A stretch of DNA of 64,000 bases from Acidobacterium sp. (GTDB lineage: Bacteria > Acidobacteriota > Vicinamibacteria > Vicinamibacterales > UBA2999). The stretch lies in assembly GCA_002737365.1 (NCBI GenBank), contig NSIL01000009.1:1-64000 (forward strand). The letters run 5' to 3'. Under the pieces are notes generated by a model. It was not told the DNA's origin. It was given only the letters and a program-made list of their open reading frames with translations, and made no database searches. How positions within the stretch are numbered: the first letter of the stretch is position 1; the number at the start of each line of letters is the position of its first letter. Positions 4,272 through 53,417 of this stretch are shown here, one piece after another. Made by a program: the position numbers and the translations under genes.

Positions 4272-6178
4272 CATCGACTCGCCTCGCGGTTGCATGCTTC
4301 ATCGGCTTGTCGATCGGCCACGCTCAGGCCCAGTCACCCCGCTTCGACGTCATCGTTCGCCACGGCACGGTGATCGACGGCAGCGGCAACCCCCGCTACG
4401 ACGCGGACATCGGCGTCCGGAGCGGCTTCATCATGGCGATCGGCGACCTTGCCGCCGCGACGGCGGCAACGGAAATCAACGCCCGCGGGTTGTTTGTCAC
4501 GCCTGGCTTCATCAACATCCACAGCCACGCGTCGCCGGATGCGTTGCCGACTGCGGTGAACATGCTGACGCAGGGCGTGACGACCGAGATCTTCAACGCT
4601 GACGGCAACGGCCCACTCGACATCGCGCAGCAGATGTCGGCGCTGGCCGCCCCCGGTCTCGCGTTGAACATTGGCGGCTATATCGGCTTCAATGCGGCGT
4701 GGCAGTCGGTGAACGGCAACACCGACAAGCGCCCGACTCCAGCCGAGATCGATCGGATGCGCGCGCTCATTGCCAAGGGCCTGGAGCAAGGCGCGTGGGG
4801 TGTCTCCGCGGGCCTTGACTACAAGCCGGGCTACTTCGCACGCACTGAAGAAGTGATCAAGATCGTCGAGGTGGCGCGCTCGGCGCGCACCAACTTCACC
4901 AATCACGATCGGATTACGCCCGAGTCGAACTACAGCTCGAAAGCCGGCGTCGCCGAAACGGTCGCCATTGGCCAGAAGGCCGGACTGGTTCCGGTGGTGA
5001 CCCACATGAAGGCCCAGGGCCTCGAACAGGGGACCGCGGGCGCGCTGCTGGCGTCGATGGACCAGGCCACGCGCCGCGGCGCCTACACTGCCGCCGACGC
5101 ATATCCGTACCTGGCAGGACAGTCGGGCCTTGGCTCGCTGATTATTTCGGGATGGGCCCAGGAGGGCGGACGCGAAGCGATGCTCAAGCGCTTTGCCGAT
5201 CCGGCACAGCGCGCGCGCATCATCGCCGAGTCGGAGCAGGCCATGACCGCGCGCTTCGGCGGCGCGCCAGGCGTCTACCTCCCGCGCACGCAGCAGGAAC
5301 TCACGGCGGTGATGAAAGCGATGAACGCCGGCGCCGGCGAGACCATCGTCCGGATTCTCGAGACCACCGCCGACCCCGGCGCCATCCTGCGATTTGGCAG
5401 CGAGGCAGACCTCGTCAAGATCCTGCAGCATCCCACCACGTCGATGGCGTGTGACTGCGGCGCCTCGCTCGCGACGCGCGGGCATCCGCGTTTCTACGGC
5501 TCGTTCCCGCGCCTGTTCGGCCGTTACGTGCGCGAGCAGAAGATCATGTCGTGGGAGGAAGCGATTCGGAAGTCATCCGCATTGCCCGCCGCCACCATCG
5601 GCATGGTCGATCGCGGCCTGATTGCTGTCGGGATGGCCGCGGACCTCGTGGTGCTGGACCCGGCCACCGTGATCGACCGCGCTACCTACGAGAGCCCGGC
5701 GCTGTCGTCAATTGGCATTCAGCAGGTGCTGGTGAACGGCCAGCCCGCGCTCGTTAATGGTGCGGCCACCACCGCGCGCGGCGGACGCGCGTTGCTCAGG
5801 ACCGGCAACCTGCCGAGCCGGCCCATGCCGGGCGGCGTACGCCGGCTGGTTGTGAAAAGCACGTCGGCAGGCGCTCGTGTCGCGATCGACATCACTCAGC
5901 GCGCGGGTGCTCGGCACGCGACCGGCAGGTTCACTATCGAAGAACCCGGCCACGCCATGACGGTCACCGCGACCGAGCTCGGCGTGGTGCAGACCGCCGA
6001 TGCGTGGTCCGGCTTCAGCGGCATCGCGACCGTCGCCGGTGGCGCCAGTCGTGCGTTCACCGCCGTTGTTGATCGCCGCGACCCGGCAGCGCCGGGTGTG
6101 GCCACCCTCGTCGTCACGGTCGAAGGCCAGGCGCCCTGGCGTGGCACGCTGCCGCTGGGCGCCGTGTCGACGAAGTGA
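4268..6178 (+). CDS. secreted N-acyl-D-amino-acid deacylase-like amidohydrolase
   Basis: 636 residues with a Sec signal ending near AQAQS (residue 23). The amidohydrolase core starts at FDVIVRHGTVIDGSG and carries the metal HxH in GFINIHSHAS (His85, His87), later VTHMKAQG and DAYPYLAGQSG. This order fits D-aminoacylase-type enzymes that remove acyl groups from N-acyl-D-amino acids. GFINIH replaces the more usual GFIDxH. About 110 residues after the metal-dependent core look like an extra beta-rich tail. Product is probably periplasmic or extracellular. It is coupled to the upstream cysteine cluster gene by ATGA. Confidence 0.8.
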   Translation: MTSTRLAVACFIGLSIGHAQAQSPRFDVIVRHGTVIDGSGNPRYDADIGVRSGFIMAIGDLAAATAATEINARGLFVTPGFINIHSHASPDALPTAVNMLTQGVTTEIFNADGNGPLDIAQQMSALAAPGLALNIGGYIGFNAAWQSVNGNTDKRPTPAEIDRMRALIAKGLEQGAWGVSAGLDYKPGYFARTEEVIKIVEVARSARTNFTNHDRITPESNYSSKAGVAETVAIGQKAGLVPVVTHMKAQGLEQGTAGALLASMDQATRRGAYTAADAYPYLAGQSGLGSLIISGWAQEGGREAMLKRFADPAQRARIIAESEQAMTARFGGAPGVYLPRTQQELTAVMKAMNAGAGETIVRILETTADPGAILRFGSEADLVKILQHPTTSMACDCGASLATRGHPRFYGSFPRLFGRYVREQKIMSWEEAIRKSSALPAATIGMVDRGLIAVGMAADLVVLDPATVIDRATYESPALSSIGIQQVLVNGQPALVNGAATTARGGRALLRTGNLPSRPMPGGVRRLVVKSTSAGARVAIDITQRAGARHATGRFTIEEPGHAMTVTATELGVVQTADAWSGFSGIATVAGGASRAFTAVVDRRDPAAPGVATLVVTVEGQAPWRGTLPLGAVSTK

Positions 6179-6185
6179 ACCGGTC

Positions 6186-6461
6186 ATGAGTGACACCGCT
6201 CGCAAGATTCTGCTCGGCATCTTCCTGGTCGGCGTCGGTGGCATCGCCACCGAGTTGTGGCTACTCGGGCACTATGAGGAGCTCGACCAGATTATTCCGC
6301 TGGCGCTTGCCGCGACCGGCACCGTCGCCGTCCTGATTACTGTCGAGATGCCGACCTCGGCGACCGTGCAGATGTTGCAGTTCGTCATGCTGCTGTTTGT
6401 GGTCAGCGGCTTCCAACGATTCAGTAGCGTCCGGCTTCGGACCAGAAATTGTAATAAGTGA
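6186..6461 (+). pseudogene. small membrane protein, probably 3'-truncated
   Basis: 91 residues starting MSDTARKILLGIF, with two hydrophobic segments (about 8-28 and 40-55) and a third (LQFVMLLFVVSGF, about 66-78). It looks like the N-terminal part of a small inner-membrane protein, abundant in acidobacteria and of unknown function, in which transmembrane segments would continue. Here the frame ends in a basic tail, FQRFSSVRLRTRNCNK, unlike a membrane protein. The stop codon sits in a GTGA overlap with msrB. Truncation is inferred from the abrupt change of composition, not from an alignment. Confidence 0.5.
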
Positions 6462-25099: not shown

Positions 25100-25417
25100 T
25101 GGTGTGGTCTTCCTGGTGACCTTCTTGTCTCCTGTCGCTTCTTCCGGCTTCGGCCGCCACAGCACAATCACCTTGCCGACCCGTTGAACCGGCGCGGCAT
25201 CGGTGCCTTCGCAAAGCCGGTGGCCGATGGCTTCGCGCGCGTCGCGGTCGTCGCCGAGAACCTTCACCTTGATCAGCTCATGCGCCGTCAGCGCGCGATC
25301 CACTTCCGTGATCACCGAAGGCGTGACGCCGTGATGTCCGACGAAGACTGTCGGTTCGAGCTTGTGGGCGCGCGCCTTCAGGTGGGCGCGCTCGCGGGTC
25401 GTCAGGGACACAGGCAT
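25091..25417 (-). CDS. yhbY: YhbY-type CRM-domain RNA-binding protein
   Basis: 108 residues. LTTRERAHLKARAHKLEPTVFVG and ALTAHELIKVKVLGDDR are the CRM fold, with GKVIVLWRP closing the domain. The Gly-rich loop is GHHGVT. YhbY binds pre-50S ribosomal particles and helps large-subunit maturation. The last ~15 residues are a basic tail. Convergent overlap with the FAD oxidase gene. Confidence 0.92.
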   Translation of the reverse strand: MPVSLTTRERAHLKARAHKLEPTVFVGHHGVTPSVITEVDRALTAHELIKVKVLGDDRDAREAIGHRLCEGTDAAPVQRVGKVIVLWRPKPEEATGDKKVTRKTTPSC

Positions 25418-25448
25418 CAGTCGATTGTACCGCCTGACGCCGCCGCGC

Positions 25449-25706
25449 TTACGCGGTGCGGCGCATCCGGTTCACGGCCTTCACCATCAGGAAGACGAGC
25501 CAGGCCGGGATCAGGAACTGTACGATCAGGTCGTTGACCAGCGAGTCGACGATCTTCTGGAACGCCGCGCCGATGCTCACGCCGACGGCGAGAGCCATGA
25601 CGTTGCCGGTGGTGATAAATTCACCTTCTCCTGATCTCTTAGTCTCCTGTGATTGCCCCGTCAGCTTCAAATGGCCAACGTGATGGCGTCCGTGCCAGGC
25701 AGACAA
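25449..25706 (-). pseudogene. MscL-like mechanosensitive channel with the periplasmic loop deleted
   Basis: The recognisable part runs [20 protein letters not shown], then [12 protein letters not shown], which is helix 1 of MscL; it continues directly as [22 protein letters not shown], which is helix 2 and its basic end. The ~45-50 residue stretch joining the helices in normal MscL (about 130-150 residues) is missing, as is the C-terminal coiled coil. The N-terminal 25 residues are encoded by a CT-rich intergenic motif and look unnatural. Short MscL-like proteins might exist, so function is not excluded. Confidence 0.65.
25625..25649. repeat. CT-rich intergenic motif, copy 2
   Basis: CTTCTCCTGATCTCTTAGTC and CTCCTG in a row, at the 5' edge of the MscL remnant. 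Compare 13890-13911 and the reverse strand of 38687-38710. Confidence 0.4.
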
Positions 25707-25777
25707 CTGCAGGACCCAAACAAGGGTGACCAGTCCATGTTCGGGGTAGACCGCGGTGCGCGTGCAGTCGTCGTCAC

Positions 25778-26851
25778 TCAGCGCTTGAACACGTCGGCGA
25801 GAAATCGCTCAACATGGAACAGCGACAGCTGCCCACTCAACCCGGCGGGCAGCGCGTCGAACGCGTGGTCACCCCACGGGATCTCGACGAACTCAGAGTT
25901 CGCGCCGGCGGCCGTCAAGGCCGCGTGCAGGTTCCGTCCGTAGTGCGGCTGCACGATGTGATCGCGCGAGCCGTAGATCAGCAGCGTCCGCGGTGCCGTG
26001 GCCGACACGAAAGTAATGGGCGAGGCCTGCTGATAGCGCTCGGGCATCTGGTCCGGGGTGCCGCCGATGTACGCCTCGAGCACCGCGCGCGAGCCGATCG
26101 GATCGGGTCGTGGCGGATAGTGCCAGCCATGCGTGAGATTCACGGGTCCATAGAAGCTGATGATCGCCGTCACGCCGGGATCCTGCAGACCCGCCACGAC
26201 GGCGAGCTGGCCACCGGCTGAACGGCCGAACAACGCCAGCTGGGCCGCATCCGCGCTGTACTCGGACGCGTGCACCCGCACCCACGCCAGTGCCGCCTGC
26301 ACATCGTCCAGTTGTGCGGGCCATTTCCAGGCCGGTGCCTTGCGATAGTCGATGGCGAACACCACGTAGCCGCTGGCGGCCAGGCGGGCCGCGAAGGGCG
26401 CGTCGTTGCCAGGCACGCCCCGTTGCCATGCGCCGCCGTAAATCTGCACGATGGCAGGGTAGGGGCCGCCGCGCATGGGCTGATAGATATCGACGGTGAG
26501 CGGCACGCCGCCGGGCGCGCCGAACGGGACGTCGCGTGTCAGCCGCGATTGGCCAAGGTCGAGGCCGGCGACCAAGGTCGTGAAGGAGAACGGTGCGCTC
26601 CTCGGGTACTGCGCAATCGGAATCGCGAACAGCACGACCGCTGCAGCCGACAACGCCAGTGACACCGGCCGGGGCCGTCCGCCGCCTCGCCATGCGAGGA
26701 CCGCCACCAACAGCGCCGGCACCATCAGCAAAGGGCTGATCTCGGGGCCGCCAACGGCCAGCGGCAGCAGCATCATCGTCGGCGCCGGAACGATGAGCCA
26801 GATGGCGACGAAGAGGACGACGACGGCGAGGGCGAGGACGAACCAGGGCAC
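25778..26851 (-). CDS. membrane-anchored alpha/beta hydrolase (esterase/acetyl-hydrolase type)
   Basis: 357 residues from GTG 26851. Three N-terminal hydrophobic segments (about 1-95) anchor a catalytic domain. IYGGAWQRG takes the place of the usual HGGxW oxyanion loop, with Tyr for His. The nucleophile elbow is [11 protein letters not shown], the acid is in YGSRDHIVQ and the His in [10 protein letters not shown]. This fits the BD-FAE/carboxylesterase group acting on small esters. The in-frame upstream part overlaps the divergent Nudix gene and is not used. Confidence 0.8.
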
Positions 26852-26883
26852 GCTCCAAGAGTATCCTGCGTTACGCTGAGGGG

Positions 26884-38686: not shown

Positions 38687-38710
38687 CAGGAGATCAAGAG
38701 CTAAGGAGAG
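38687..38710. repeat. CT-rich motif, copy 3 (reverse strand)
   Basis: CAGGAGATCAAGAGCTAAGG and AGAG; its complement has the same TGATCTC/TTAG words as 13890 and 25625. It covers the MATE stop codon and encodes its last residues. Confidence 0.4.
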
Positions 38711-39656
38711 CGGCTCCCGCCAGCTTGATCCTGAACTCCCGCTGCAGCAACACGAGGTTGAGCGCCATCTGGAGCGTCGTCGAGACCACGGTGAACCACC
38801 AGATCCAGGTCAGCGCGAATTCGGGACGGCCCGACAGGACCACGGCCGGCGCGATGCCGACGATAATCCGGAGGAACGACGTCGCCAGCGACGGCAGCGT
38901 ATTGCCCATGCCCTGGAACATGCTGGCGGAGACAAACGTGATGCCCGAGGCGACAAAGTTGAGCGTCACGATGTGTAGGTAGTCCACCCCGACCTGCAGC
39001 ACCTCAGGATCTGAGCTGAAGATGCCGATTAACTGCGGCGCGGCCAGGTAGACGCCAATGCCGGCCGGTAGCATGAAGGCCGCGGCGATCGACGCCGCCG
39101 TCTTGAAGACTTCGCGGACGCGGTCGCCTTGCTTCGCCCCGAAATTCTGGCCGGCGACCGGCGCCACGGCAAAGCCAAGCGCCACGATCGGAAGAAACAC
39201 CGACTGAACGAACCGGAAGCCCACGCCGAATCCGGCCTGCGCTGCGGCGCCGAAGCGGCGGCTAATCGCATACACAACCACCATGTAAACGCCCATCAAG
39301 CCGAACTCGACCCCTGCCGGCAGCCCAATCTTCAGCATCTGCCCCCACACCCGGAACTCGGGCTTCCAGTCGGAGCAGTGGAAGCGCAGGCACGCGTCGC
39401 GATCAGCAAAGTAGAACGAAATCCAGATCACACCGACGGCCACGGCCACGAACGTGGCCACCGCCGCGCCCATGGCGACGATGGCGAACTGCAGCGCCAT
39501 GGCGGGAATGAACCACAGCAGGTATTCCTCGGTCAGCGTCTGCATGGCCGCGTCGGCGCTGATGCCCACGGCCGCGACCGCGTCGGTGCCGAGCCGGCCC
39601 ACCCAGAACAAATCGACCAGCACGTAGAGCGCCTGGAAGACCATGCTGACGAGCAT
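38694..39656 (-). pseudogene. MATE-family efflux protein with internal deletions and a lost start
   Basis: 320 residues from ATG 39656 against about 450 for the family. Homology begins earlier: the frame upstream reads DLTTGSLTGHLLKTTSF (to about 39710) but has no start codon before the stop of the SRPBCC gene. Inside, VGRLGTDAVAAVGISAD joins directly to AAMQTLTEEYLLWFIP, losing the first repeat's middle helices, and VAMGAAV joins to ATFVAVAVGVIW, losing the LRGTGNF-type segment. The second half (FRVWGQMLKIGLPAGVEFGL onward) is intact. The tail GAALLSS is made by a CT-rich repeat. Confidence 0.65.
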
Positions 39657-39719
39657 GAAGCTGGTGGTTTTCAGGAGGTGCCCGGTGAGGGAACCGGTGG
39701 TGAGATCCTGCTGGGGTGA

Positions 39720-40205
39720 TTATAGTCGGTCGATCTGCACCGCGATCGGCCCCCGGGCCTCGACCTGGAACTGCTTCAGGATCTGGTGTTGCCGAAAGGT
39801 GAAGATGCGCTGTAGATCGCGTTTCACCATCAGCCCATGCATCAGCGCGCCGCCGATCGGAGAGTAGAGCACGGTGTCCTCGACCAGGGTGCCGCCATCG
39901 ACCGCGGCGAAGGTGTGGGTGTGGTGCCAGCGCCAGTACGGGCCCCACAACTGCTCGTCAACGAATCGTGCCGGGGGCGTCCAGTCACTGATCCGCGTGC
40001 GCCACGGCACCGGCAGGCCGCGGACGATGATCAGGTAGTCGATGATCGCGCCAGGCCGCATCACGATTGGTTGCGGAGTGCGGATGCGAAAGCTTAACCA
40101 CGGTGGCGTCAGCTTCTGCAGGTTGGCGGCATCGGCGAAGAATGCGAACGTTTCGTCGAGCGGCCGCGCCACGAACAGCCGGGTGTTGAGCCGATATTTG
40201 GCCAT
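39720..40205 (-). CDS. SRPBCC (START-like) ligand-binding family protein
   Basis: 161 residues from ATG 40205. The start ARPLDETFAFFADAANLQKLTP, the RPGAIIDYLI strand, WRTRISDWTPP and WGPYWRWHHTHTFAAV are typical of SRPBCC proteins of the ligand-binding type related to YfhH/TIGR01777-associated domains. Ligand unknown. Starts ~40 bases after the end of the glycosyltransferase remnant; its stop is followed in the same frame by the MATE remnant. Confidence 0.75.
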   Translation of the reverse strand: MAKYRLNTRLFVARPLDETFAFFADAANLQKLTPPWLSFRIRTPQPIVMRPGAIIDYLIIVRGLPVPWRTRISDWTPPARFVDEQLWGPYWRWHHTHTFAAVDGGTLVEDTVLYSPIGGALMHGLMVKRDLQRIFTFRQHQILKQFQVEARGPIAVQIDRL

Positions 40206-40243
40206 CGTTATTATGACGCCAGTGCCGAAACGAGCGGTGCAAC

Positions 40244-40491
40244 TCAGTCCGCGAAGGCGTCCACAATCTCGCGAGCGCATGGCGGAGCCGCTCCTGCGCC
40301 GCCGGATCGGCCAGCACCGCCGTGATCCGCGCCACGGCGTCGTCCGCGGAGTCGTACATCAGGGCCGCCTCATGGCCGACAATCTCCATCTGGCCCCCGC
40401 CCTTCGACACCCACACGATGACGCCGGCTCGCGCCAGTTCAGCCGTTGCCATCCCGAAGTGCTCTTCGCGGCGTTCAATCGCACCATGCCG
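40244..40491 (-). pseudogene. C-terminal remnant of a GT4-family glycosyltransferase
   Basis: Minus-strand frame REEHFGMATAELARAGVIVW followed by GGGQMEIVGHEAALMYDS matches the donor-binding end of GT4 glycosyltransferases. The N-terminal ~300 residues are absent; the frame is closed by a stop at 40492-40494. Near the 3' end the natural finish REIVDAFAD and stop (40244-40246) is in another frame, so a frameshift is also likely. The lost part would have extended into the place now held by the divergent formate-THF ligase remnant. Confidence 0.6.
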
Positions 40492-40602
40492 TCAGCCGCG
40501 ATCGCGATGTGGACGAAGCTGGCGGCCGCGGCCAAGTTCGCCACCGCCCGTTTGCCGCTCGTCGTCGTCCGGTCTGGACCTGCCCATGAAGACCGCCGAG
40601 CC

Positions 40603-41874
40603 GGCGACTTCCACGCCATCACCGCGGCGCACAACCTGCTGGCGGCGCTGCTCGACACGCACCTGCACTTCGGCAACGACTTGCGGATTAATCCGCAGGA
40701 GATTCTGTGGCCGCGCTGCATGGACCTGAACGACCGCGCGCTGCGGCGTATTGCCACCGGCCTCGGCGGCCGCGCGAATGGGCCCGCGCGCGAGACCGGA
40801 TTCGTGATTACCGCGGCGTCGGAGATCATGGCCATTCTGGCCTTGTCGGAAGGCCGCGCTGACCTCCGCCAACGCCTCGCGCGCATCGTCGTCGGCTTCA
40901 ACTACGACGGTGCGCCGGTCACGGCGAATGACCTCAAGGCCGTTGGTCCGATGATGGTGTTGCTGAATGACGCGGTGTTGCCAAACCTGGTGCAGACCAA
41001 CGAGGGCGCACCGGCCATCGTGCATTTCGGGCCATTCGCCAATATCGCGCATGGCACGAGCAGTGTGCTGGCGCAGCGCATCGGCCTCCACCTGGCCGAC
41101 TACGTCGTCAACGAAACGGGGTTTGCGGCTGATCTCGGCGCCGAGAAGTTCTTCGACCTGGTCATGCCGATGTGTGGTCACGTGCCCGCCGCGGCAGCGG
41201 TGATCGTCACGCTCAAGGCACTGCGGACGCAGGGCGGTGCGCCCGATGGTCCGCTCGAGCCGGGCTTTCCCAATCTGGCGCGGCATCTCGACAACCTGAA
41301 ACGCTGGGGTGTGCCGGCCGTGATCGCCTTGAATCGTTTCCCAGGCGATACGGCTTCGGATCTCGAACAGGTGATGAGCTATTGCCGCTCGCTCGGTGCC
41401 GACGTGGCGCTGGCCGAGGGCTACACCAAGGGCGGCGCCGGTATGACGGATCTGGCGCACAAGCTCGTGGCGGCGGCCCAGGCTTCGGATCCGGCGGCGG
41501 TGAAACCGATTTACTCCCCGGTGCAAACGCTCGAGGAGAAGATCACCGCCGTCGCGACACAAATCTACGGCGCCGCGCGGGCGTGGTTCAAACCGGCGGC
41601 AAAGACGCGACTGGCGAAGCTCGCGACGCTTGGCTACGGCCCGCTGCCCGTGTGCATCGCCAAGACGCAGTACTCGTTTACCGCCGACCCCAAGCAGATG
41701 GGCGCCCCGTCGGGGTGGACGCTGAACGTCGGCGAGGTCACGTTGTCGGCCGGTGCCGGTTTCGTCGTCGCCATTGCCGGCAGCATGATGCTGATGCCGG
41801 GATTGGGCACAGTACCGCAAGCCCAGAAGCTGGACGTGGACGACCGAGGCGCGATGATCGGCATGGATTATTAA
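40603..41874 (+). pseudogene. fhs: formate-tetrahydrofolate ligase lacking its N-terminal ATP-binding part
   Basis: From 40603 the frame is clearly formate-THF ligase: GDFHAITAAHNLLAALLD, MDLNDRALRRIATGLGG, VGPMMVLLNDAVLPN, VLAQRIGLHLADYVVNETGF, ADLGAEKFFDL, PAVIALNRFPGDT, LGYGPLPVCIAKTQYS and the end LPQ-like VPQAQKLDVDDRG. The first ~120-150 residues of the family, with the P-loop (TPxGEGKTT), are missing. Upstream in-frame sequence to 40042 is unrelated. Without the P-loop the enzyme cannot activate formate. The junction is with the GT4 remnant. Confidence 0.72.
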
Positions 41875-41903: not shown

Positions 41904-42185
41904 ATGTTGCTACCCGACGCCGGAGCCTTGCCGCCCGACCTCAGCCCTGAACAGATCCAGGCGATCATCGAACGCTATGTCAGCTGGAGGCAGAAGGTCG
42001 CCACCGGCCGCGGGAGAGTCGGTTCGCCAACAGTTACCGACGGCCCGTTTGCCGAGTCGTGCGAAGTGATTGGCGGGATCTTCATGGTTGAGGCGGCCAG
42101 CTTCGACGAAGTGGTCGAGCTCAGCAAGGACTGCCCCCACCTCGACTTCGGCACCATCGAGTTCCGCGAAGTCAAACCGACGTAA
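41904..42185 (+). pseudogene. YCII-domain protein with a central deletion
   Basis: 93 residues. LPPDLSPEQIQAIIERYVSW and VTDGPFAESCEVIGGIFMVE with PHLDFGTIEFREV are the two ends of a YCII/DGPF-type protein (about 115-120 residues). The strand between them, normally a GxLVGGxxL region, is reduced to a few residues (ATGRGRVGSP). The first residues of strand 1 may also be lost. In many bacteria this family is encoded next to a SigJ/SigF-like sigma factor, as here. It may still fold, but its length is unusual. Confidence 0.55.
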
Positions 42186-42489
42186 GTGGCCAGCGACTCG
42201 ATCGCACTTGTTGGTCATCTGTTCCGCCGCCAGACAGGACAGATGGTCGCCAGGCTGACCCGAACCCTCGGGTCGCGCCACCTTGCCATGGCCGAGGACG
42301 CGGTCCAGGCCGCCGCCGGCGCGCGATACCCTCGAACGCTATCCGTTGCTGCCGGCCGTCGAGGCCGAACTCTGGCGCGAGGCCGGCGACCGGGTGCGGG
42401 CCGCCGCCAGCTACCGGTCGGCGCTCACCCTGGCAAGGCCGGCCCCCGAGCAACGGTGGCTGACCACTCGGCTGACGCATCTCGTATAA
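42186..42489 (+). pseudogene. remnant of an ECF-type (DUF6596/SigJ-like) RNA polymerase sigma factor
   Basis: GTG 42186 directly follows the YCII stop. The first ~40 residues (VGHLFRRQTGQMVARLTRTL, HLAMAEDAVQ) match the N-terminus of region 2 of the sigma factors that accompany YCII proteins. In the +1 frame from about 42322 the sequence becomes ERYPLLPAVEAELWREAG and SYRSALTLARPAPEQRWLT, the TPR-like C-terminus of the same proteins, ending at 42489. About 330 codons of the middle are absent and the halves are out of frame. Confidence 0.6.
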
Positions 42490-42501: not shown

Positions 42502-43098
42502 GTGGACTACCTGATCAAACAATACGCGCTTGAGCCCGGTGCGCTGGAGATCCAGTACATCGAGGAGTACTTCGGCGAGTTTCCACGCCGCAAGACGGCC
42601 GCCGAGATTATCGAGCGGTTGCACAATCGCGAATCGCTGATCCTGATGGCGGAAGCGCCGCTCCCCGATGACCCCTCGGGCGCGCTGGTGCCGGTGTCCT
42701 ACAAGATCGTCCACGAGATCCGCCATGACGAGTTGGTGCCGAAGCTTCGCGACCTGGTTGATCGGCTGACCGGTCCGGTCTCGTTCGACGGCCGTCGCAT
42801 TCTCTATTCGTGGATTGGCGGCACGCGGCGCGACTGGCGCGGCCAGGGCCACTTTCGCGCGCTGACCGAAGAAACCGAAGTCTGGGCGCAGGCGGCCGGC
42901 TTCGAGGAAGTCGTCGTCAAGACCAAGAACCGCCATTACGACATGCGCGCCGTCCTCGCGCAGTTGCACTTCAACGTCGTCAAGCACGAGCCGAACCTGA
43001 ATGACCGCGCTGAGTCCAAGGTCTATCTGAGCAAGCTGTTGCCGGCAGAATTGGCCCACCGCCACCGCAGCGTTCGCACCGTCGTCTACTCGGAGTAA
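42502..43098 (+). CDS. GNAT-family N-acetyltransferase
   Basis: 198 residues from GTG 42502. SYKIVHEIRHDELVPK is the core strand pair, and WIGGTRRDWRGQGHFRALTE is the acetyl-CoA loop (RxxGxG/H), with KTKNRHYDMRAVLAQLHFNV as the closing helix seen in a subgroup of acyl transferases. Substrate unknown. The frame is complete and the following OsmC gene starts 22 bases later. Confidence 0.75.
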   Translation: MDYLIKQYALEPGALEIQYIEEYFGEFPRRKTAAEIIERLHNRESLILMAEAPLPDDPSGALVPVSYKIVHEIRHDELVPKLRDLVDRLTGPVSFDGRRILYSWIGGTRRDWRGQGHFRALTEETEVWAQAAGFEEVVVKTKNRHYDMRAVLAQLHFNVVKHEPNLNDRAESKVYLSKLLPAELAHRHRSVRTVVYSE

Positions 43099-48361: not shown

Positions 48362-48448
48362 TTAACGGTCGGCGTATTTCGCCAGCCTCCGCAGTTTCTT
48401 GTCGACCTTGCTGACGACCTGCGCTTCCGGCGCGCGGTACGAGGCCAT
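48362..48448 (-). pseudogene. possible 3' remnant of a minus-strand gene
   Basis: A 28-codon frame (MASYRAPEAQVVSKVDKKLR with RLAKYADR at the end) runs to TAA at 48362, just after the convergent M24 gene. It is charged, ends naturally beside a gene stop, and its upstream side meets the truncated DUF4112 gene head to head. No family can be assigned; it may be nothing. Confidence 0.2.
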
Positions 48449-48459
48449 CCGGCACCGCG

Positions 48460-48654
48460 GTGTCGTTGACGATCATCGCGCGCACACTTCGCTATGGTCC
48501 GCCCGCGACACTGGTCTCCAGGATGCTGGCGAACGTCGCGGTTGACCTCGTCTTCGGAGCGATTCCCTTGGTCGGTTTCTTCGCCGACATTTGGTTCAAG
48601 TCCAACGATCGCAACGCGGCATTAATCAAAGACTTCCTCGCTGCAAGGGACTGA
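48460..48654 (+). pseudogene. C-terminal half of a DUF4112 membrane protein
   Basis: 64 codons from GTG 48460. RYGPPATLVSRMLANVAVDL with VFGAIPLVGFFADIWFKSND and RNAALI is the second half of DUF4112 proteins, whose first half repeats a GLIPGVGDL-type motif and is absent. The family is usually ~120-150 residues. The gene begins 12 bases from the unidentified minus-strand fragment, the same head-to-head geometry as the GT4/formate-THF ligase junction. Confidence 0.55.
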
Positions 48655-52211: not shown

Positions 52212-53417
52212 ATGACCAGACCTCAACTGGCTGCGGTTCTCGCCATCCTCTTCTTCGCTTCGCCAGGGTTCGCGCAATCATCGGTCCGCCAGACACAAGA
52301 AGACGACTACACACGCTACGAATTGCTGGGCCCAGACAGCGCGCAGTTTCGAATCTTGTATGAAGTCACTGCGACGACCGCCGGCGCGCCCTACTTCTTC
52401 AATGCCATTCGTCGCGGCAGCGTCGCGACCGATGAGCGCGTCACCGACCTGATGACCGGTCTGCCGCTCAAGTGGGAGGTGGTCAACGGCAAGCAGGCCC
52501 GCGCCGAGGGTCATCCCACCGCCGATCTCGAAACCGAGTGGCTGAAAGTGCACCTCGCCCGGCCGGTGCCGAAGGGCGGCGAAGGACGCGTCCTGATCGA
52601 CAAGACCTACAAGGACGCCAAGAGCTACTTCCGCGACGGCGACACGATTGTTTTCGATCGGTCGCTCGGCATCCGCCGCAACGCCGTCGTGCTGCCGGCC
52701 GGTTATCGCTTGATCAGCTGCAACGTGCCCTCACAGGTGATGGCCACCGACGATGGCCGGGTCATGATCACGTTCATGAACACGAGCGCGGCGGCCGCGC
52801 CGCTCGTGATCCGCGCCAAGCCGGGCCTGGCGCCCTTGACACAGAAGCTGCCGACGACTCGCGGGGCCTCAGCGCCAGTGACGATGGCGTCGCAGGCTGT
52901 GCGGCTGTCGGACCGCGCGCACCAGGATCGAGAGATCGTCTACTTTCCCAACGACCCCGCGACGCATTCGTTCAGCCTCTATCACGACTACACCGAGTCT
53001 CGCCCCGGCGTCGGTCACTACTTCAACGTGGTGCGCGCTGGTAGTTCGGTGTCGAATCCGTCAGCGGTCTTGCTGGACACCGGTGAGGTGCTCAAGGTTG
53101 AGACCCTGAGCGGCGCTGACCTGAAGAAGCGCGGCCTCGATGCCGGGGAGCCGGTCACCGATACGACGCAGATCGTGGTGATCGCAGTCCCGGCCGTGAA
53201 GCAGGGGCAGTCGGTGCGGCTGCGGATTACCGAGACCTACACCGATGCCAATCGCTATCTGCTCGAGGGGGATGAACTAGTCTGGGACCGGGCGTTCGGT
53301 CGACCCCGGAATGCCGTGGTGCTGCCCGCCGGGTCAAGGAGTAGGCTGGGACTGCCAGCCTACGTGAGCATCTGCAGCAGCAGTGCCTTCTGCGAGTGTA
53401 ACCGGTTCTCGGCCTGA
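52212..53417 (+). pseudogene. secreted two-repeat protein, 3'-truncated into argF
   Basis: 401 codons from ATG 52212, with a signal peptide ending at GFAQS. The protein has two copies of a beta-rich unit: copy 1 ends FDRSLGIRRNAVVLPAGYRL and goes on for another ~60 residues; copy 2 reads WDRAFGRPRNAVVLPAG and then switches to SRSRLGLPAYVSIC, which is only the complement of the argF hairpin and 3' end. So the last ~60-70 residues were lost at about 53337. Family not recognised. The frame overlaps argF by 58 bases. Confidence 0.6.
53341..53363. terminator. hairpin at the end of the arginine operon
   Basis: GTAGGCTGG-GACTG-CCAGCCTAC is a perfect 9-bp stem with a 5-base loop; the argF stop (53360-53362) lies in its arm. 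It probably ends or protects the arg transcript; no T run is visible. Confidence 0.55.

Follow-up and report, generated by a model that had tools for sequence, protein, structure and literature searches.

The first 64,000 bases of contig NSIL01000009.1 (assembly GCA_002737365.1, Acidobacterium sp.), hereafter called the window, carry at positions 40244-41874 the remnants of two genes lying on opposite strands, one encoding a glycosyltransferase of family GT4 and the other a formate-tetrahydrofolate ligase (FTHFS). Comparison with related genomes suggests that both belong to a gene cluster in active decay, whose genes have lost their selective value and in which several separate deletions have left collinear stubs; we give this reading a probability of roughly 0.64. 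The preliminary description of this DNA had attributed both truncations to a single deletion of 1.3-1.5 kb. The gene order of the relatives points instead to at least four deletions at the GT4-FTHFS place, three between the stumps (about 2.4, 0.30 and 0.67 kb) and a 49-base one in the tail of GT4. The whole locus displays seven deletions, since two others affect a flanking MATE transporter gene and one affects a sigma factor gene.

The window corresponds to bases 1-64000 of a contig of 114,499 bases (C54) from a 3.05 Mb assembly of 54 contigs, rated 97% complete. The genome under study (G000) was compared with five congeners (G003, G004, G005, G006 and G008, whose locus stretches bear L-numbers). 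The nearest relative is G006, with which FTHFS shares 91% amino acid and 88% nucleotide identity.

As previously described, the FTHFS gene (40603-41874, plus strand), delimited by Pfam and by comparison with G006, is devoid of its 5' part. The remnant covers positions 127-555 of the 556-position Pfam profile (PF01268) and aligns with residues 120-542 of the 542-aa G006 orthologue. It therefore differs from intact members of the family by the absence of 119 N-terminal residues, which presumably include the P-loop. The remainder is conserved, with 422 amino acids in an open frame without inner stop, and scores below the NCBIfam cut-off for NF010030 (532 versus 652 bits). Neither a second FTHFS nor any further FTHFS piece is encoded in the whole G000 assembly, and the missing N-terminal piece, whose presence elsewhere the preliminary description had envisaged, was not found on another contig. 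Because the ATP site is gone, the truncated enzyme is predicted to be inactive.

The GT4 remnant (40244-40491, minus strand) is indeed reduced to its C-terminus, i.e. residues 286-359 of the 383-aa G006 protein followed by the last codons in another frame. Its stop codon (40246-40244) is reached only past the frame change due to the 49-base deletion, located at approximately 40269-40279 by pairwise alignment with G006. With only residues 286-359 in frame, no complete two-domain GT4 is encoded, and a Pfam search of the frame 39985-40452 returned no match.

The cut ends of the two genes do face each other across a short interval, previously given as about 110 bases; however, they are not separated by a plain junction. 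The 110-130 bases lying between the stumps correspond to two slices (about 99 and 39 bases), in the right order, of a plus-strand gene encoding a second glycosyltransferase (GT). Slice A (40468-40566, plus strand) matches residues 236-268 of the G006 protein encoded at L015:5081-6481 with 72.7% amino acid identity, and slice B (40562-40600, plus strand) matches residues 367-379 with 76.9% identity, out of frame with slice A. Slice B is short and scores only 24.6 bits as protein, its 39 bases being 87% identical to G006 and 90% to G003. The alignment path along G006 thus runs through GT4 to about 40470, then through G006 positions 5784-5890 and 6178-6216, before entering FTHFS at residue 120. 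Three junctions result from this path. At J1 (40465-40472), about 2438 bp are lost, including most of GT4, the whole of a WecA-like gene and the 5' part of the second GT gene; at J2 (40561-40571), about 298 bp are lost within the second GT gene; at J3 (40599-40601), about 671 bp are lost, including the 3' end of the second GT gene and the first 119 FTHFS codons.

Nothing is left of the WecA-like gene at the locus, and its sole match in G000, at 37%, lies on contig C3. When a 5-kb segment of the G006 cluster was searched as DNA against G000, the 40 candidates scored out of 241 contained nothing beyond the local stubs and, in four other contigs, matches of 24-30 bases. The coding sequence of the second GT of G006 harbours a palindrome of some 24-30 bases (L015:5962-5991), which has near-identical matches of 28-30 bases in the G000 contigs C39, C45 and C28; the other sequences of the window region contain none with 5 mismatches or fewer. 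This element looks like a member of a dispersed repeat family.

The intact arrangement is preserved in relatives. In G006, the order is MATE, SRPBCC, GT4 and WecA-like genes (all on the minus strand), followed by the second GT and FTHFS genes (both on the plus strand), and about 3.5 kb separate the points at which GT4 and FTHFS are cut in G000, a segment that holds the WecA-like gene and the second GT gene. In G005, G008 and G003, which were read, like G004, with G006 proteins as queries, the MATE, GT4, WecA-like, second GT and FTHFS genes are full or nearly full length and on the same strands, without SRPBCC. The order of these five genes is therefore kept in four of the five congeners. The fifth, G004 (L018), has no WecA-like gene; its SRPBCC gene is on the minus strand, and a different GT4 (44%) occupies the plus strand between the ABC transporter and the second GT; the same cluster is thus labile in another lineage too. 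Two plus-strand frames of G004 that cover the SRPBCC and GT4 places proved misleading, as the G006 queries place SRPBCC on the minus strand and the other GT4 on the plus strand. An ABC transporter adjoins GT4 in G003, G004, G005 and G008 and is absent from both G006 and G000.

These data leave the proposal of one 1.3-1.5 kb deletion between divergent genes hardly conceivable. It accounts for the opposed stumps on opposite strands; however, such an event would join GT4 straight to FTHFS, whereas the stumps are separated by slices of a third gene in their original order, and the corresponding interval of G006 has two genes and about 3.5 kb. Three deletions are needed between the stumps, and the single-event account is therefore replaced by one involving several events.

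Erosion extends to both sides of the two stumps. The MATE transporter gene (38694-39710, minus strand, with an open frame at 38694-39656) displays two in-frame internal deletions relative to the five relatives. One of them (junction at 39458-39470) removed 132 bp relative to G006, G005, G004 and G003, and 135 bp relative to G008, and the other (39554-39562) removed 201-207 bp. The window protein retains one Pfam MatE match, versus two in the intact G006 protein. Downstream of FTHFS, an ECF sigma factor gene of the DUF6596 type (42186-42486, plus strand) persists as two pieces in different frames (42186-42314 and 42322-42486), about 0.96 kb having been lost at 42313-42331 relative to G004 and G008; this gene is not found at the corresponding place in G003, G005 or G006. 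The damaged genes are interspersed with intact ones, namely an SRPBCC/polyketide-cyclase-like gene (39720-40205, minus strand), which is matched over its full length in G006 and G004, is without match in the stretches of G005, G008 and G003, and has a ratio of non-synonymous to synonymous differences (pN/pS) relative to G006 of 0.15; a YCII-domain gene, intact according to Pfam (41904-42185, plus strand); and a gene without NCBIfam match (42502-43098, plus strand), for which 'GNAT' is only our label.

According to the proposed scenario, FTHFS, GT4, the WecA-like gene, the second GT and the flanking MATE and ECF sigma factor genes would have lost their selective value in the G000 lineage. Separate deletions of about 50 bp to 2.4 kb, probably occurring one after another in living cells, would then have taken away the greater part of the three sugar genes and portions of the remaining ones, so that collinear stubs now stand among intact neighbours. 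The process would be an ordinary one, deletional pseudogene erosion, unusually dense at this locus, and this is our best reading. The loss of FTHFS should be tolerable, since FolD, which provides another route to 10-formyl-tetrahydrofolate, was found in all eight genomes looked at, including G000. Beyond the genus, FTHFS is over the cut-off in only four of 31 genomes, in one of which it is split over two contigs. Considered together with the ubiquity of FolD in the eight genomes, this suggests that FTHFS is dispensable in the family. Within the genus, the FTHFS type of G000 is shared by five of eight congeners, with 81-91% amino acid identity, the three others having an enzyme with 49-50% identity.

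The deletions may result from RecA-independent illegitimate or short-homology recombination. Out of 84 alignment rows, 34 with a fit below 0.6 were dropped, giving a set of 39 distinct junctions, some of which possibly correspond to gains in the relative rather than to losses in G000. The mean overlap at these junctions is 1.97 bases, versus 1.04 for 400 simulated random cuts, and overlaps of at least 5 bases are found at three of the 39 junctions, versus 0.75% of the simulated cuts. At the MATE junction at 39554-39562, the overlap amounts to 8 bases relative to G006, G005 and G008, and to 0-1 base relative to G004 and G003. The whole set is consistent with deletions of two kinds, short-homology and homology-free, as measured in Salmonella by Koskiniemi 2012 (PMC3386194). 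A defect of DNA repair was considered as a cause and not assigned: G000 has RecA and MutS matches with open frames, and a Ku match is lacking in G000 (where no Ku remnant was looked for) and in G003 too. Ku is present in G004, G005, G006 and G008, the gene of G005 containing a stop codon.

The generality of this erosion was evaluated in four regions, the present locus and those surrounding recA, mutS and rplB, a reference gene being considered ancestral when it also has a homologue in the outgroup G003. With G004 as reference (n=109), G000 harbours 96 intact genes, six remnants and seven absent genes; with G008 as reference (n=113), it harbours 93, seven and 13, respectively, the two remnant counts overlapping in genes. 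In the controls, G008 displays 91 intact genes, no remnant and six absent genes (n=97), and G004 displays 91, one and 10 (n=102), its single remnant being at the WecA-like place. The excess of remnants in G000 gives Fisher p values of 0.004 (7/113 versus 1/199) and 0.031 (6/109 versus 0/97). Losses also spare slowly evolving genes, as all 31 genes with an identity of 85% or more between G004 and G003 were kept, versus 68 kept and 13 lost below this threshold (p 0.018; this test took 112 genes rather than 109, all genes outside the list of 13 lost being scored as kept). Lost genes are longer than kept ones (median of 590 versus 256 aa). Among genes 15-45 of the ribosomal region, 30 of 31 have a G000 coverage of 0.93-1.00, the exception being a truncated EF-G paralogue.

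Among the remnants detected outside the window, this second EF-G retains 129 of 697 residues, an MFS transporter 24 of 401 and an FG-GAP protein 92 of 491, and a 168-aa gene product persists as pieces of 36 and 12 residues. The remainder of the EF-G paralogue was searched for in G000, and the only other matches share 26-43% identity; its apparent coverage of 0.97 at 42% identity reflects a match to the true EF-G rather than an intact paralogue. A lost S46 peptidase has no match elsewhere in G000, in a search made without positive control. A SurE gene near mutS, which looked truncated (0.66), was not counted as a remnant, its SurE-domain part being complete and its 5' part, which is poorly conserved and in another frame, being probably over-called. 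Genome-wide relaxation of selection by drift was not adopted either: for 84 intact genes (23,253 codons), the branch ratios of non-synonymous substitution rates (dN) are 1.15 (1.07-1.25) for G000/G004 and 1.01 (0.89-1.18) for G000/G008, versus 1.11 (0.95-1.27) for the control G008/G004, i.e. little or no rise. An earlier sign of raised dN, obtained by our own arithmetic from four stretches compared with G006, was not borne out in these 84 genes.

Several observations weigh against a cluster in decay. The stubs show little point decay and a coding-like divergence, which implies that the deletions either are recent relative to the split from G006 or are partly false. The FTHFS remnant has a pN/pS relative to G006 of only 0.12, and FTHFS is over the Pfam cut-off with a near-full profile in all eight congeners. 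The overlaps at J1, J2 and J3 are just 2, 2 and 1 bases, J1 having none relative to G005, so that a short-homology mechanism is not demonstrated at these three junctions. Four of the seven G000 remnants (MATE, GT4, second GT and FTHFS) are those that prompted the comparison, and without them the excess is only suggestive, the p values becoming 0.13 (3/109 versus 1/199), 0.12 (4/107 versus 0/97) and 0.05 (4/107 versus 1/199). Genes lost without a trace are not clearly more frequent in G000 (7/109 and 13/113) than in the controls (6/97 and 10/102), and identity alone does not separate lost from kept genes (Mann-Whitney p 0.28). Branch ratios of non-synonymous to synonymous rates (dN/dS) on the G000 side, again from our own arithmetic, are about 0.16 for FTHFS, 0.09 for pntA (a value mixing 362 and 517 codons), 0.11 for the gene at 42.5 kb and 0.12 for the MATE remnant, and give no clear sign of relaxed selection.

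The undecayed state of the stubs would also be expected if the genes were intact in the cells and if the assembler or a gap-closing step had stitched together fragments of a stretch with poor coverage or strain variation, leaving out the DNA between them. Such a patchwork is consistent with the clustering of J1-J3 within about 140 bases, with their short overlaps and with the small size of G000 for its genus (3.05 Mb versus 2.8-5.9 Mb, with a completeness of just 80-85% for the two congeners of 2.8 and 3.2 Mb), and the relatives are themselves, according to their titles, metagenome assemblies. The named records of related loci are metagenome-assembled genomes (MAGs), most of them titled Acidobacteria and one Baikal-deep. 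However, an ordinary assembly should need spanning reads to join sequences over 1-2 shared bases. Moreover, no N is present in any G000 stretch read, the slowly evolving genes and the ribosomal-region genes are spared as described above, and no other contig was found to hold the missing parts, within the scope given above for the cluster segment. The lengths of the stubs were also considered as a possible sign of single reads, an idea that was not adopted, as the short slices range from 36 to 387 bases without pile-up at one read length. An assembly artefact is therefore viewed as unlikely, if worth bearing in mind. Within the records themselves, L035 (VFZG01000002.1) is titled 'Acidimicrobiia bacterium', yet its locus groups with the Acidobacteria records.

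The proximity of J1, J2 and J3, the conserved order and strand of the slices and the young appearance of all three junctions could also reflect one replication accident with serial template switching that generated them together. This is quite improbable, as the nearby MATE gene was cut more than once and stubs are found at other places of the genome, which argues for repeated events, and slice order alone does not discriminate between the two. Even less credible is the idea that the open frame 40042-41874 (610 codons, or a shorter version from the ATG at 40486) encodes a functional protein, either fused or truncated at the N-terminus. This frame has no stop, slice A is in frame with FTHFS and pN/pS is low, but the first 126 positions of the family profile are missing, long chance frames are common at the 66% GC of the region, and slice B is out of frame. 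Deletional decay of the cluster thus remains the preferred explanation.

Other gaps occur within and beyond the window. A DUF4112 stub (48448-48648, plus strand) retains residues 114-180 of 181; as the gene is short in G005 too (0.45), this loss is perhaps older than the others. The neighbouring M14-peptidase gene is absent. An S9 peptidase gene of G004, G008 and G003 is absent at window positions 53332-53360. Many closely spaced gaps relative to G004 are observed at window positions 25141-26882 and at positions 70407-72770 of contig C54, and both stretches are possibly further eroded loci.

A literature search found no paper on the present genome or locus. Among better known systems, Kuo and Ochman 2010 (PMC2916853) describe, in Salmonella, pseudogenes of which 346 of 378 have a single inactivating mutation and few have lost more than 20% of their length. 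As in that account, the present remnants lie amid conserved neighbours and would be eroded mainly by deletion and quickly removed; unlike in that account, they keep about 6-80% of their genes, several of which have undergone at least two deletions. In Koskiniemi 2012 (PMC3386194), RecA-independent spontaneous deletions in Salmonella involve homologies of 6-15 bp in 19 of 30 cases and of at most 4 bp in 11 of 30. The present deletions resemble them by ends with short or little homology and differ by their size (about 0.05-2.4 kb versus 2-67 kb) and by belonging mostly to the little-homology class.

Titles of congener records such as Baikal-deep and DeepCast_65m suggest that the lineage is probably free-living. 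Speculatively, and with considerable doubt, its genome might be shrinking through frequent deletions within genes, at a pace exceeding that of point decay, while its intact genes evolve at normal rates. If this tentative extrapolation held, dispensable genes would become short and still recognisable coding stubs, at a tempo unlike that of Salmonella pseudogenes. More immediately, annotating the 422-aa protein as formate-tetrahydrofolate ligase would wrongly credit the organism with formate assimilation. The moderate interest of the locus lies in the density of its deletions and in the availability of congeners that give the intact order. If the stubs are errors, they call for caution in trusting gene absences in the G000 assembly; if they are real, they would offer a snapshot of ongoing gene loss in an uncultured member of the Acidobacteriota, with intact congeners for comparison.
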